A stretch of 42,161 nucleotides of DNA from Candidatus Peribacteria bacterium RIFCSPHIGHO2_02_FULL_53_20 (GTDB taxonomy: Bacteria > Patescibacteriota > Gracilibacteria > Peribacterales > Peribacteraceae), in NCBI GenBank assembly GCA_001787585.1, contig MFXW01000047.1, positions 1 to 42,161 on the forward strand, given 5' to 3'. Positions 36,437 to 39,703 of this stretch are shown piece by piece (position 1 is the first letter of the stretch; the number at the start of each line of letters is the position of its first letter). The translations under genes and the position numbers were made by a program. The notes beneath the pieces are model-generated. The model saw only the letters and a program-made list of their open reading frames with translations, ran no database searches and was not told the DNA's origin.

Positions 36437-37501
36437 ATGAAAAGCATCATCTGCAATCCCAGTTACGGAAATAATCCGTACATCCGGACAACGGAAATGG
36501 CTCTAAAGTTAAGCGACAAGCTCGGAGAGAATATTTCCGTGGTCGTTCCGCATCTGTATGGTGAAAAGCAGACACGCATCCTCCGCGAAACCTTCGGGGA
36601 AGATCCTCGTATTATTCTCGATGAAACATTCGGAATAATTCTCCGAAAAATATTCTTCGAGGGTACTTCGTATGCTGCGTTTCTAGAACAATGGATGGGT
36701 GAGTCAGATGCAATCAGTGAGGAAGCGCAGGAATATCTGCATGCAACGTATGACATTCTTTGTGAAATCAGCCGCTCCCCTCTTCTGAATCTCGGGATTT
36801 CACCAGCATTTTACAACTCCTGGTTCCGCACATCAGTCATTCTCGAGAGAGCGGCAACCGAACCCGCAATCGCGATCGATAAGACGCTCTTACAAACCGC
36901 AGCGGAAAAATTCCGTGCCTTGGAATCCCGATACCAGCTTCATATGATCAGCGTGCCGGGCACATTCGATCCCGGAAAAGACGATACGCCTATTCCTCTC
37001 GGCGTTTCCCTGCCCGTGGTCGATGAACAGGTTGTGCAGCACGGCGTATATGTCACCGTCAGTGGTATTCCGGATGTCGGTCCCCTGCAAAGTATCGCCG
37101 ATCGCCTGGGAATCAAAATCTACGCATCCGATTCTGCAAAGATCCAGAGGTCTGTACATGCCCTTCCCGGCATTCTCGCGCATCAGGAAATTGTTGCGCA
37201 CATCGCGCGCGCCGGATGGGGAGCCATTGGTACTTCCCTCGCCACCGGCACTCCACTGATTGTTCCCGCATATCAGAAAGACGAAGATCCGGAGATTTTC
37301 TTCAACATCCGCCGCATTGAAGAACTTGGACTTGGCGTGGAATTCCGTAATCAGACGGCAACCGAACTTTTGGCAATGATGAAGATTTTGCGACCAAGAA
37401 TCGCGGAATACCGTGAAAAACTATTGGAGCAATTCGGAACGCTGGATGGGGCACAAATGGCTGCAAACATCATTGCTGAGAAATTATTGGAAAATTATTG
37501 A
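36437..37501 (+). CDS. Putative GT-B glycosyltransferase-like protein
   Basis: C-terminal HIARAGWGAIGTSLATGTPLIVPAYQKDEDPEIFFNIRRIEELGLGVEF resembles the donor-site region of GT28/MurG-like enzymes; N-terminus not assigned. Confidence 0.5.
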   Translation: MKSIICNPSYGNNPYIRTTEMALKLSDKLGENISVVVPHLYGEKQTRILRETFGEDPRIILDETFGIILRKIFFEGTSYAAFLEQWMGESDAISEEAQEYLHATYDILCEISRSPLLNLGISPAFYNSWFRTSVILERAATEPAIAIDKTLLQTAAEKFRALESRYQLHMISVPGTFDPGKDDTPIPLGVSLPVVDEQVVQHGVYVTVSGIPDVGPLQSIADRLGIKIYASDSAKIQRSVHALPGILAHQEIVAHIARAGWGAIGTSLATGTPLIVPAYQKDEDPEIFFNIRRIEELGLGVEFRNQTATELLAMMKILRPRIAEYREKLLEQFGTLDGAQMAANIIAEKLLENY

Positions 37502-37509
37502 AGTAGGTG

Positions 37510-37744
37510 GGTGGGTTCCGCGCGCCACGGGGGGTGCCGGGGAAGACCCTGTTTTCCGCCCGCAGGCGGAAGTCGAGATGGAAACGCCGAATCCTTGCAG
37601 GCGTTTCCATCGAGACACAGGGTCGAGTAGTTCGAAAAACTCACTACAGGCTCCGGGGCTTGGCGCGGCCTGCCCTGAGCTGGGTCGAAGGGTGGGCTTT
37701 TCTTTGCTACTTTACTTTTGTCCGGCAGACAAAAGAAAGTAGAT
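37510..37744. repeat. Structured intergenic element, copy 1 (multi-stem with terminal CTACTTT...AAAGTAG hairpin)
   Basis: Shares GGTTCCGCGCGCCACGGGGGGTG, CCCTGTTTTCCG, GCCGAATCCTTGCAGGCGTT, GAGACACAGGG and TTTGTCCGGCAGACAAAAGAAAGTAGA with 39507-39703. Confidence 0.9.
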
Positions 37745-37771
37745 ACTGTTAGCATCGACCCAACTCAACCT

Positions 37772-38740
37772 ATGGTAAAAATTATCGCCGAACTCTGCCA
37801 AAACCACTGCGGCGACCGCTTGCTTCTTTCGGAAATGATTGCTGCTGCAGCCGAAAACGGCGCGGACATCGTCAAATCCCAGATTATCTTCTCCGAAGAC
37901 CTCATGCATCGACCACAGTTTGATGAAGGAAAAATCCTCTCAGACGGCACCGTTATTACGATCAAGCGCCCATATGCCGCGGAATATGAACGACTGAAGG
38001 TGCTCGATCTCGCAGAGGACGACCATCGGTTCTTCATCGATGAATGCAAACGCAGGAAAGTCCTTCCGATGACTACTATCTTCAGCCGCAATCGTATTCT
38101 GTTTGCCGCTTCCCTGCCCTGGCCGCGTCGCATTGTAAAAGTCGCCAGCTATGACTGTGCAAGTTTTCCGATGCTCGAGGAGCTTGCAGAGCGCTTTGAC
38201 CATGTCTACATTTCCACAGGCGCAACGTTCGACGAAGAAATCGCGAAGACTGCGGATATCATGCACAAAGCCGGAAGAACATTCTCACTGCTCCACTGCG
38301 TGACGAGTTACCCGAATACGATGGAGATGTGCAATCTCCGCCGCATGCAGTGGCTCAAGCAATTCACGCCCTCCATTGGTTGGTCTGACCATACGCTTGT
38401 GAAGCGTGACGGTCTCAAGGCGAGCAAAGCGGCAATCGCCCTTGGAGCGGATGTGATTGAGCGGCACTTCACCATCCTTCCCGAAGACAAAACCAAAGAT
38501 GGTCCTGTTTCGATCACACCTGCGATGCTGAAGGAATTGAAAGAATTTTCTGCGCTTGATGTCGCGACCCAGACAAAGGAAATCCGGAAAGAGATCCCCG
38601 ATTGGGAAACGATCCTCGGTACTGAAACACGACCATTAACGCCGACAGAGCTGCTGAATCGCGATTATTACCGTGGGCGGTTTGCGAGCAAGGTGAATGA
38701 CCAATGGGTGTATAACTGGGAACGCGCAGCGATCATATAA
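37772..38740 (+). CDS. NeuB-family nonulosonic acid synthase paralogue 3, no recognisable SAF domain
   Basis: VKIIAELCQNHCGDRLLLSEMIAAAAENGADIVKSQIIF; SLLHCVTSYPNTMEMCNLRRM; IGWSDHTLVKRDG; VIERHFTILPEDKTKDGPVSI. Confidence 0.85.
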   Translation: MVKIIAELCQNHCGDRLLLSEMIAAAAENGADIVKSQIIFSEDLMHRPQFDEGKILSDGTVITIKRPYAAEYERLKVLDLAEDDHRFFIDECKRRKVLPMTTIFSRNRILFAASLPWPRRIVKVASYDCASFPMLEELAERFDHVYISTGATFDEEIAKTADIMHKAGRTFSLLHCVTSYPNTMEMCNLRRMQWLKQFTPSIGWSDHTLVKRDGLKASKAAIALGADVIERHFTILPEDKTKDGPVSITPAMLKELKEFSALDVATQTKEIRKEIPDWETILGTETRPLTPTELLNRDYYRGRFASKVNDQWVYNWERAAII

Positions 38741-38792
38741 CGGAGATTCCCGATACACCGATACACCGATATCCGATATTCTCATCGCAGCA

Positions 38793-39503
38793 ATGACACG
38801 CACGCCCTCTGTCCTCGGCATCATTACTGCTCGCAGCGGCAGCAAAGGCATCCCGAATAAAAATATCGCGCCGCTCAAAGGCAAACCCCTCATCGTCTAT
38901 ACGATTGAAGCGGTACAGAACAGTAAACTCCTCACGCGTACCGTTGTTTCCACAGATAGCGAGGAGATCGCCTCGATCGCAAAGAAGCATGGTGCGGAAG
39001 TGCCGTTCCTGCGCCCTGCGGAACTCTCGACGGACAGCGCCCTCGCTCTCGACGTTCTCGCCCATGCGATCACACACTGCAAGGAACACGACGACCAATC
39101 GTATGATTACGTCATGATGCTCCAACCGACTTCTCCGCTGCGGACGGGCGAAGACATCGACGCCTGCATTCGCATCGCCGCCGAAACCGACGCCGACTCC
39201 GTCTTCAGTATGAAAGAGCTGCCCGACTTCGCTCCGCAGAAGATCAAGACGATTGAGAATGGCGAGATCAAGCCCTTCATTGCGGAGGAAAAAGGACAGT
39301 CCGCTCCACGTCACAAAGCCAAAAAAGCCTATAAGAGAAACTGTGCCGTGTACCTCACGCGCACAAATCTGATTCTCAAGGGTGATCAGTTCGGCAAGAA
39401 ATCGATGGCGTACGTGATGCCCCAGGAACGCAGTATCGACATCAATGATCCTGTGGATCTGGAACTGGCGGAGTTTTGGATGAAGAAACTCAACATGCTC
39501 TAA
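38793..39503 (+). CDS. Acylneuraminate cytidylyltransferase (CMP-nonulosonate synthetase), second copy
   Basis: VLGIITARSGSKGIPNKNIAPLKGKPLIVYTI; DYVMMLQPTSPLRTGEDIDACI; YKRNCAVYLTRTN. Confidence 0.93.
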   Translation: MTRTPSVLGIITARSGSKGIPNKNIAPLKGKPLIVYTIEAVQNSKLLTRTVVSTDSEEIASIAKKHGAEVPFLRPAELSTDSALALDVLAHAITHCKEHDDQSYDYVMMLQPTSPLRTGEDIDACIRIAAETDADSVFSMKELPDFAPQKIKTIENGEIKPFIAEEKGQSAPRHKAKKAYKRNCAVYLTRTNLILKGDQFGKKSMAYVMPQERSIDINDPVDLELAEFWMKKLNML

Positions 39504-39506
39504 GCC

Positions 39507-39703
39507 GGTGGGGTTCCGCGCGCCACGGGGGGTGAAGGGGGAGGCCCTGTTTTCCGTCCGCCTCAGCGGACGGAAGTCGAGCCGGGAATGCCGAATCCTT
39601 GCAGGCGTTCCCGGCGAGACACAGGGCCGGGCGGAGGGGTTCTGGCGCGCGGTGGGCTTTTCTTTGCTACTTTCTTTTGTCCGGCAGACAAAAGAAAGTA
39701 GAT
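39507..39703. repeat. Structured intergenic element, copy 2
   Basis: Nested inverted repeats: 39516-39525/39643-39652, 39543-39550/39621-39628, 39552-39561/39566-39575, 39581-39592/39604-39615, 39667-39681/39687-39701. Confidence 0.9.

Follow-up and report, generated by a model that had tools for sequence, protein, structure and literature searches.

BOX, RUP and SPRITE of Streptococcus pneumoniae are repeats of modular build that lie between genes, have extensive predicted secondary structure and optional internal modules, turn over slowly and are occasionally put to coding use (PMC3049150). Rickettsia palindromic elements, as described in PMC10969869, are palindromic, about 150-200 bp long, often intragenic, and can be inserted in frame into protein genes. 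REPs, each of them one palindrome of 20-40 bp that has a foot of the GTAG type, and the BIMEs are dispersed between genes and thought to be mobilised as single-stranded DNA, in association with RAYT/TnpA_REP proteins (PMC6006769, PMC3733652). In the IS200/IS605 family (IS608, ISDra2), orientation follows the direction of replication, and the lagging-strand template is involved (PMC5371812). For uncultured CPR bacteria, which have very small genomes, such repeats have been little described. Here, we report a previously undescribed interspersed palindromic repeat family of Candidatus Peribacteria with well over 100 copies, for which a literature search found no describing paper. Two of the copies lie in the window, i.e. 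the whole stretch of 42,161 nucleotides that was analysed.

A first-pass annotation had pointed to two related structured copies between same-strand genes. All stems that it quoted are present, and the copies were recovered independently as direct and inverted repeats (Table 1). Both are situated between plus-strand genes of a surface-sugar cluster (NeuB-family synthase, cytidylyltransferase, D-2-hydroxyacid dehydrogenase). The gene upstream of copy 1 ends at 37501 and the one downstream starts at 37772; for copy 2, which begins 3-4 nt past the stop codon of the upstream gene, the corresponding positions are 39503 and 39720. For the second of the annotated hairpins, we likewise found the three two-sided changes and the single C-G to T-G wobble around an identical loop, GAATCCTTGCA. 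Chance falls far short of explaining the observation. With the core covariance model, copy 2 reaches 133 bits and copy 1 (37513-37660) 90.2 bits. Two of the annotated details have to be modified. The outermost stem noted for copy 2 does pair, but it is not specific to this copy, since the same stem (P1) is general to the element. The extra segment of copy 1 at 37625-37690 is indeed there, but it lies outside the standard element and substitutes for part of the 3' side of P1.

Table 1. Coordinates of the two window copies of the repeat and of their parts
Feature	Position	Strand	Remarks and basis
Copy 1 of repeat	37513..37742	+	type A tail; 3' side interrupted, chimeric; blastn 37513-37744
P1 5' arm CCGCGCGCCA, copy 1	37518..37527	+	sequence
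P2 5' arm GACCCTGT, copy 1	37545..37552	+	sequence and family pairing
P4 hairpin, 11-nt loop GAATCCTTGCA, copy 1	37572..37616	+	inverted repeat I2; P4 covariation
P2 3' arm ACAGGGTC, copy 1	37617..37624	+	sequence and family pairing
Segment foreign to standard repeat, contains CCTGCCCTGAGCTGGGTCGAAGGG, copy 1	37625..37690	+	absent in such form from other aligned copies
Terminal AT-rich hairpin, copy 1	37707..37742	+	inverted-repeat search, blastn
Copy 2 of repeat	39507..39701	+	complete, type A tail; sequence, genome search, relatives' sites
P1 5' arm CCGCGCGCCA, copy 2	39516..39525	+	sequence and family pairing
P2 5' arm GGCCCTGT, copy 2	39543..39550	+	sequence and family pairing
P3 (TTCCGTCCGC/GCGGACGGAA), copy 2	39552..39575	+	hairpin with greatest length variation; sequence, alignment
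P4, copy 2	39576..39620	+	GTC/GAC, GA/GA internal loop, long stem, fixed loop GAATCCTTGCA at 39593-39603
P2 3' arm ACAGGGCC, copy 2	39621..39628	+	sequence and family pairing
P1 3' arm TGGCGCGCGG, copy 2	39643..39652	+	sequence and family pairing
Terminal hairpin CTACTTTCTTTTGTC-CGGCA-GACAAAAGAAAGTAG, copy 2	39667..39701	+	inverted repeat I3, 100% complementary

The anatomy of the repeat was read from an alignment of 64 copies and from later sets. A short, G-rich 5' end (GGNGG) runs into the long-range stem P1, which is either CCGC(GC)GCCA/TGGC(GC)GCGG or GGCGCGCCA/TGGCGCGCC and encloses a three-way junction of P2, P3 and P4; a separate terminal hairpin follows. Inside P1 come, in this order, a conserved CGGGGGGTGAAGGGGAAG, P2 (GGCCCTG/CAGGGCC), the hypervariable hairpin P3, which the alignment shows to be swapped wholesale between copies, P4 with its fixed loop GAATCCTTGGA, and GGGCGGAGGGG. 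At two adjacent positions of P4, 24-25 of 40 copies have the tandem mismatches G.A and A.G, and some others form Watson-Crick pairs there. The terminal hairpin is either AT-rich (type A, CTTTCTTTTGTC..GACAAAAGAAAG) or of a CCACC type (type B, CCACCTTTGTC-GCCG-GACAAAGGTGG). We considered the terminal hairpin as an intrinsic terminator and rejected this, as the sequence 3' of it has no U tract. On that side, GATACT-like -10 boxes occur 6-10 nt before the start codon, at 37743-37790 of the window and next to several other copies of the genus, hinting at leaderless promoters beside the repeat.

Not all copies have the complete layout. Short forms, among them those of G026, have P1 and the tail, with P2-P4 missing, and in chimeric copies the middle is replaced by other small palindromic repeats. 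Such a replacement probably accounts for the extra segment of copy 1 as well, judging by its resemblance to a small palindromic repeat, CCTGCCCTGAGC..GTCGAAGGG, that interrupts other copies too. Comparable inserts are found in one G001 copy, and one G000 copy has its middle replaced. More generally, small palindromic repeats (CCCTGAGC..GTCGAAGGG; GCCTGCCTGCCGGTAGGCAGG; CCTGCCCGTCCGTAGT..) are nested in copies of the larger one, in many cases at one and the same place inside it; we located them at 37640-37690 of the window, in L077 (G001), in L074 and L076 (G004) and in L029 (G000). In G016-like genomes, a second repeat, GCCCTGCGAGCCGCCGTGGTACGAC, lies directly beside or within several copies (L140, L168, L178, L195, L201, L310).

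The further copies that the first-pass annotation had proposed to look for exist, both in the same genome and in relatives. A search with copy 2 detected six long copies in its own genome of 1.13 Mb in 81 contigs (E 1e-99 to 6e-31), along with partial and short forms, and eight genomes of the same family have between 1 and 35 core matches each. According to a core covariance model built on 55 copies, the element is present in 39 of the 353 genomes of the class, all of them belonging to a single family, Candidatus Peribacteria, and its distribution is patchy even within genera. A pattern scan of 85,462 species returned records of Candidatus Peribacteria/Peregrinibacteria and two others. One of these two, in a record labelled merely 'bacterium', reaches 80 bits with the core model; the other, in an actinomycete, has no profile match. 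The viral contigs, phage and plasmid collections that we searched contain no match to the element. The proposed comparison with Rfam gave no match at the gathering score and nothing below E 0.8 at relaxed thresholds, where the weak matches were mostly to microRNA hairpins.

The multi-branched fold, originally proposed from two copies, has strong support from more than 110. In the alignment of 55 copies, we counted 309 two-sided changes, where shuffles gave 123 and slid controls 44-77; for 111 distinct copies, in which 85.6% of cells are paired in the proposed fold, the numbers are 678, 235 and 79-145. As the copies are related to one another, these counts are not probabilities, but the contrast with the slid structures is large. 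P1 (94.7% of cells paired across the family) and P2 (91.6%, with two-sided changes at seven of the eight pairs) covary although their arms are far apart.

Covariation by itself is no proof of RNA, and the Peribacteria repeat may serve as a warning in this respect. For the nature of the pairing, we used 28 curated, reliable pairs, because the RNAalifold structure of the element holds doubtful G.U pairs. These comprise 2959 Watson-Crick, 48 G.U and 29 A.C cells. The G.U excess is mild (P=0.04), which leaves room for an RNA fold. In the element, G.U makes up 1.6% of canonical pairs; for RNase P RNA from these genomes, a rough control with an only partial RNAalifold structure and 52% identity, the figure is about 16%. 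As wobble is hardly used and G.U barely exceeds A.C, its scarcity is mild evidence for a DNA fold over an RNA fold. In single-stranded DNA folding, the top strand came out more stable than the bottom strand for 112 of 112 cores, so that the fold is predicted to have a preferred strand, the top one.

Comparison of related genomes revealed filled and empty sites, which together with the dispersed non-autonomous copies is a feature of MITEs. The folK|folE junction is filled in G000 and empty in G002, G004 and G010; the site of window copy 2 is empty in the relatives G001 and G002. The site of copy 1 is filled in G001, but G002 has no such repeat there. At this orthologous site (L252), G002 carries a different short palindrome, CCCTCTCCCAACGGGAGAGGGTAGGGTGAGGG, where G000 carries the repeat, suggesting an insertion hot spot. 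The copies of G016 that we examined in L085 and L094 are absent from its close relative G230. One of the G016 copies is in frame within an O-antigen-ligase (Wzy_C) gene (L085:699-2291, minus strand, contig C6). As compared, the protein has 531 aa in G016 and 475 aa in G230, with homology on both sides of the insert, and the element encodes a stretch of about 60 residues of the G016 protein. No target-site duplication was visible at the compared sites, the flanks of which are only about 75-90% identical, and we found no clean terminal inverted repeat. The idea that the window copies bound neuB-neuA as a composite cassette was dismissed, since G002 has neuB-neuA-dehydrogenase without either copy.

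Other sites keep an element across species, namely folB|folK, the region upstream of groES, and gltX-murB. Depending on the genome, the divergent intergenic region upstream of groES-groEL (L030, L071, L073, L223, L118) is occupied by a short copy, by a long one of type A or by one of type B; in G003 there is none. Copies at the same site are no closer to one another than to other copies, suggesting conversion, module exchange or repeated insertion.

Copies sit closer to the 3' ends of genes than to their starts (68 of 109 versus 44 of 112 within 60 nt, P=0.0008, with gene calls from a simple hexamer caller). In genus g1, to which this genome belongs, 21 of 23 copies have an upstream gene of the same strand, often with its end at a distance of 3-16 nt; outside g1, gene orientation relative to the element is random. 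With respect to GC skew, by contrast, orientation is biased. Of 72 copies mapped in four genomes, 56 have the top strand on the strand of negative skew (P=2e-6). The same holds for 45 of 60 local loci, which measure up to 8 kb and partly overlap with the 72 copies (P=1e-4), and, by local skew, for all 23 copies of genus g1. The polarity was first noticed in G032, which therefore does not count as independent evidence; when this genome is left out, 45 of 59 copies conform. GC skew does not track coding direction in the sampled genomes. We use it as a proxy for replication direction, with the replication arms derived from the skew only; in G032, dnaA as a marker of the origin is not at a skew switch. 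With this proxy, orientation follows replication direction, as it does in IS200/IS605, and by the usual skew convention the bottom strand would be on the lagging-strand template.

No known enzyme that might move the repeat was found in the carriers searched. The Y1 transposase profile (Y1_Tnp, PF01797) has no match in G016, G017, G022, G026, G032 and G033, although a divergent Y1 could be missed, and it matches frequently in G025, G030 and G031, where the repeat was not found. Reverse transcriptase (RVT_1, PF00078) has no match in G032, a single-contig carrier genome, G026, G022, G010, G014 and other carriers, and TnpB is nearly absent from the family. Going by these profile matches, none of the three tracks the element. 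No TnpA or TnpB gene lies inside the element, and the 5'-only and 3'-only fragments in the loci examined include no gene-bearing autonomous parent between element ends. A GTAG/GGAG tetranucleotide at the 5' foot is not general, as GTAG is found only in some genus g1 copies and what the ends share is GGNGG. By eye, we saw no integron attC boxes (GTTRRRY/RYYYAAC) at the element ends.

The first-pass annotation had left the choice between a structured RNA and a REP-like mobile element. The mobile reading fits better, given the dispersed copies, the empty sites, the short and chimeric forms, the insertion within a gene and the orientation bias relative to GC skew; the RNA reading is weaker, as wobble pairs are rare. 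We favour, with moderate confidence, a family-specific, non-autonomous, replication-polarised palindromic mobile DNA repeat of the REP/MITE/BOX kind. A functional structured RNA, be it a cis element (3' or inter-cistronic) or an sRNA encoded in multiple copies, would comprise the three-way junction and a putative protein- or RNA-binding loop, GAAUCCUUGGA. It would agree with the strong covariation, with the conservation on one strand of unpaired purine-rich segments and of the tandem G.A motif, with a median RNA folding z of about -3, and with the close same-strand upstream genes of genus g1. However, gene orientation is random elsewhere, no promoter-like sequence is conserved upstream, the terminal hairpin is not followed by a U tract, only 48 G.U against 29 A.C are seen in about 3000 cells, short forms do without the entire junction and are the form present in G026, and Rfam is silent, so that we consider an RNA rather unlikely. 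If the repeat were instead a passive palindromic parasite with no selection on the fold, its compensatory changes would stem from template switching in inverted repeats and from gene conversion between copies. Template switching is reported to make and maintain hairpins with compensatory changes (PMC8794818), and could yield some of those seen here in hairpins. The wholesale exchange of P3, the near-perfect Watson-Crick pairing with similar frequencies of G.U and A.C, and the failure of copies to group by locus are also in keeping with such an origin. Yet P1 and P2 covary too, despite whole hairpins between their arms, the cores GGGGGTGAAGGGGAAG, GAAUCCUUG and GGGCGGAGG, which are unpaired, show conservation between genera, and the G.A/A.G internal loop is left imperfect in most copies. 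This speaks against purely passive maintenance, which we regard as distinctly unlikely.

Two further explanations start from the polarity. A canonical REP element, moved by a RAYT/TnpA_REP (Y1 HUH) transposase of the same genomes, would be palindromic, mostly intergenic and, like the IS200/IS605 family, replication-polarised (PMC5371812, PMC6006769), and some copies have GTAG near their start. This foot is not general, though, the element is far larger than a REP, and Y1_Tnp is missing from the six carriers named above and frequent in the three apparent non-carriers; a canonical REP is thus disfavoured and very improbable. The strong polarity relative to GC skew and the G-rich motif would also suit a polarised host site serving replication or chromosome segregation, similar to KOPS. 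But copies are few (about 1-35 per genome), many sister genomes gave no match, and the G-rich strand of the element is on the C-rich strand, opposite to the polarity of KOPS, which makes a host site of this kind hardly credible.

While the family, its fold, its insertion and its polarity with respect to GC skew are established by the data, we infer for the favoured mobile DNA repeat that single-stranded DNA, as laid bare at the replication fork, is the form in which the fold acts. The polarity may have either of two causes. Insertion may have used the bottom strand on the lagging template, in a peel-and-paste manner like that of IS200/IS605; alternatively, copies in the opposite orientation may have been lost because in them it would be the top strand, the more stable of the two, that folds on the lagging template. 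As none of the three enzymes searched for tracks the element and no gene-bearing parent turned up, we propose that the mobiliser of this non-autonomous repeat, coupled to single strands, has been lost or has escaped recognition, or else that the polarity reflects survivorship. Copies may persist and become alike through gene conversion, and template switching (PMC8794818) may contribute to the perfection of the hairpins. A bolder version, speculative and in our judgement quite unlikely, is a replication-polarised DNA element, branched by a three-way junction when folded as a single strand, that moves, or once moved, without the known enzymes of single-strand mobility (Y1 HUH, reverse transcriptase, TnpB systems), by a route that would be new in reduced CPR genomes.

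The Peribacteria repeat has well over 100 copies and covaries strongly; its core is optional, other repeats nest in it, one copy is inserted in frame in a gene, and its polarity relative to GC skew is clear. This makes it a tractable case for studying the spread of palindromic repeats, and the upkeep of their fold, where no transposase is resident. It shares with IS200/IS605 an orientation that follows replication direction (PMC5371812), but not a transposase or TnpB gene inside the element or tracking it. Like REPs and BIMEs, it consists of palindromes scattered between genes, for which mobilisation in the form of single-stranded DNA is presumed (PMC6006769, PMC3733652); at about 190 bp, with no constant foot and no matching Y1 gene, it differs from the single REP palindrome. 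It resembles the Rickettsia palindromic elements in its palindromic nature, its size and the possibility of in-frame insertion into a protein gene (PMC10969869), but one clear intragenic case among about 115 copies examined contrasts with their often intragenic location. The likeness to BOX, RUP and SPRITE (PMC3049150) lies in the modular intergenic build, the predicted secondary structure, the optional internal modules, the slow turnover and the occasional coding use; what sets the Peribacteria repeat apart from them is the three-way junction within a long-range stem, the polarity relative to GC skew and the occurrence in one CPR family.
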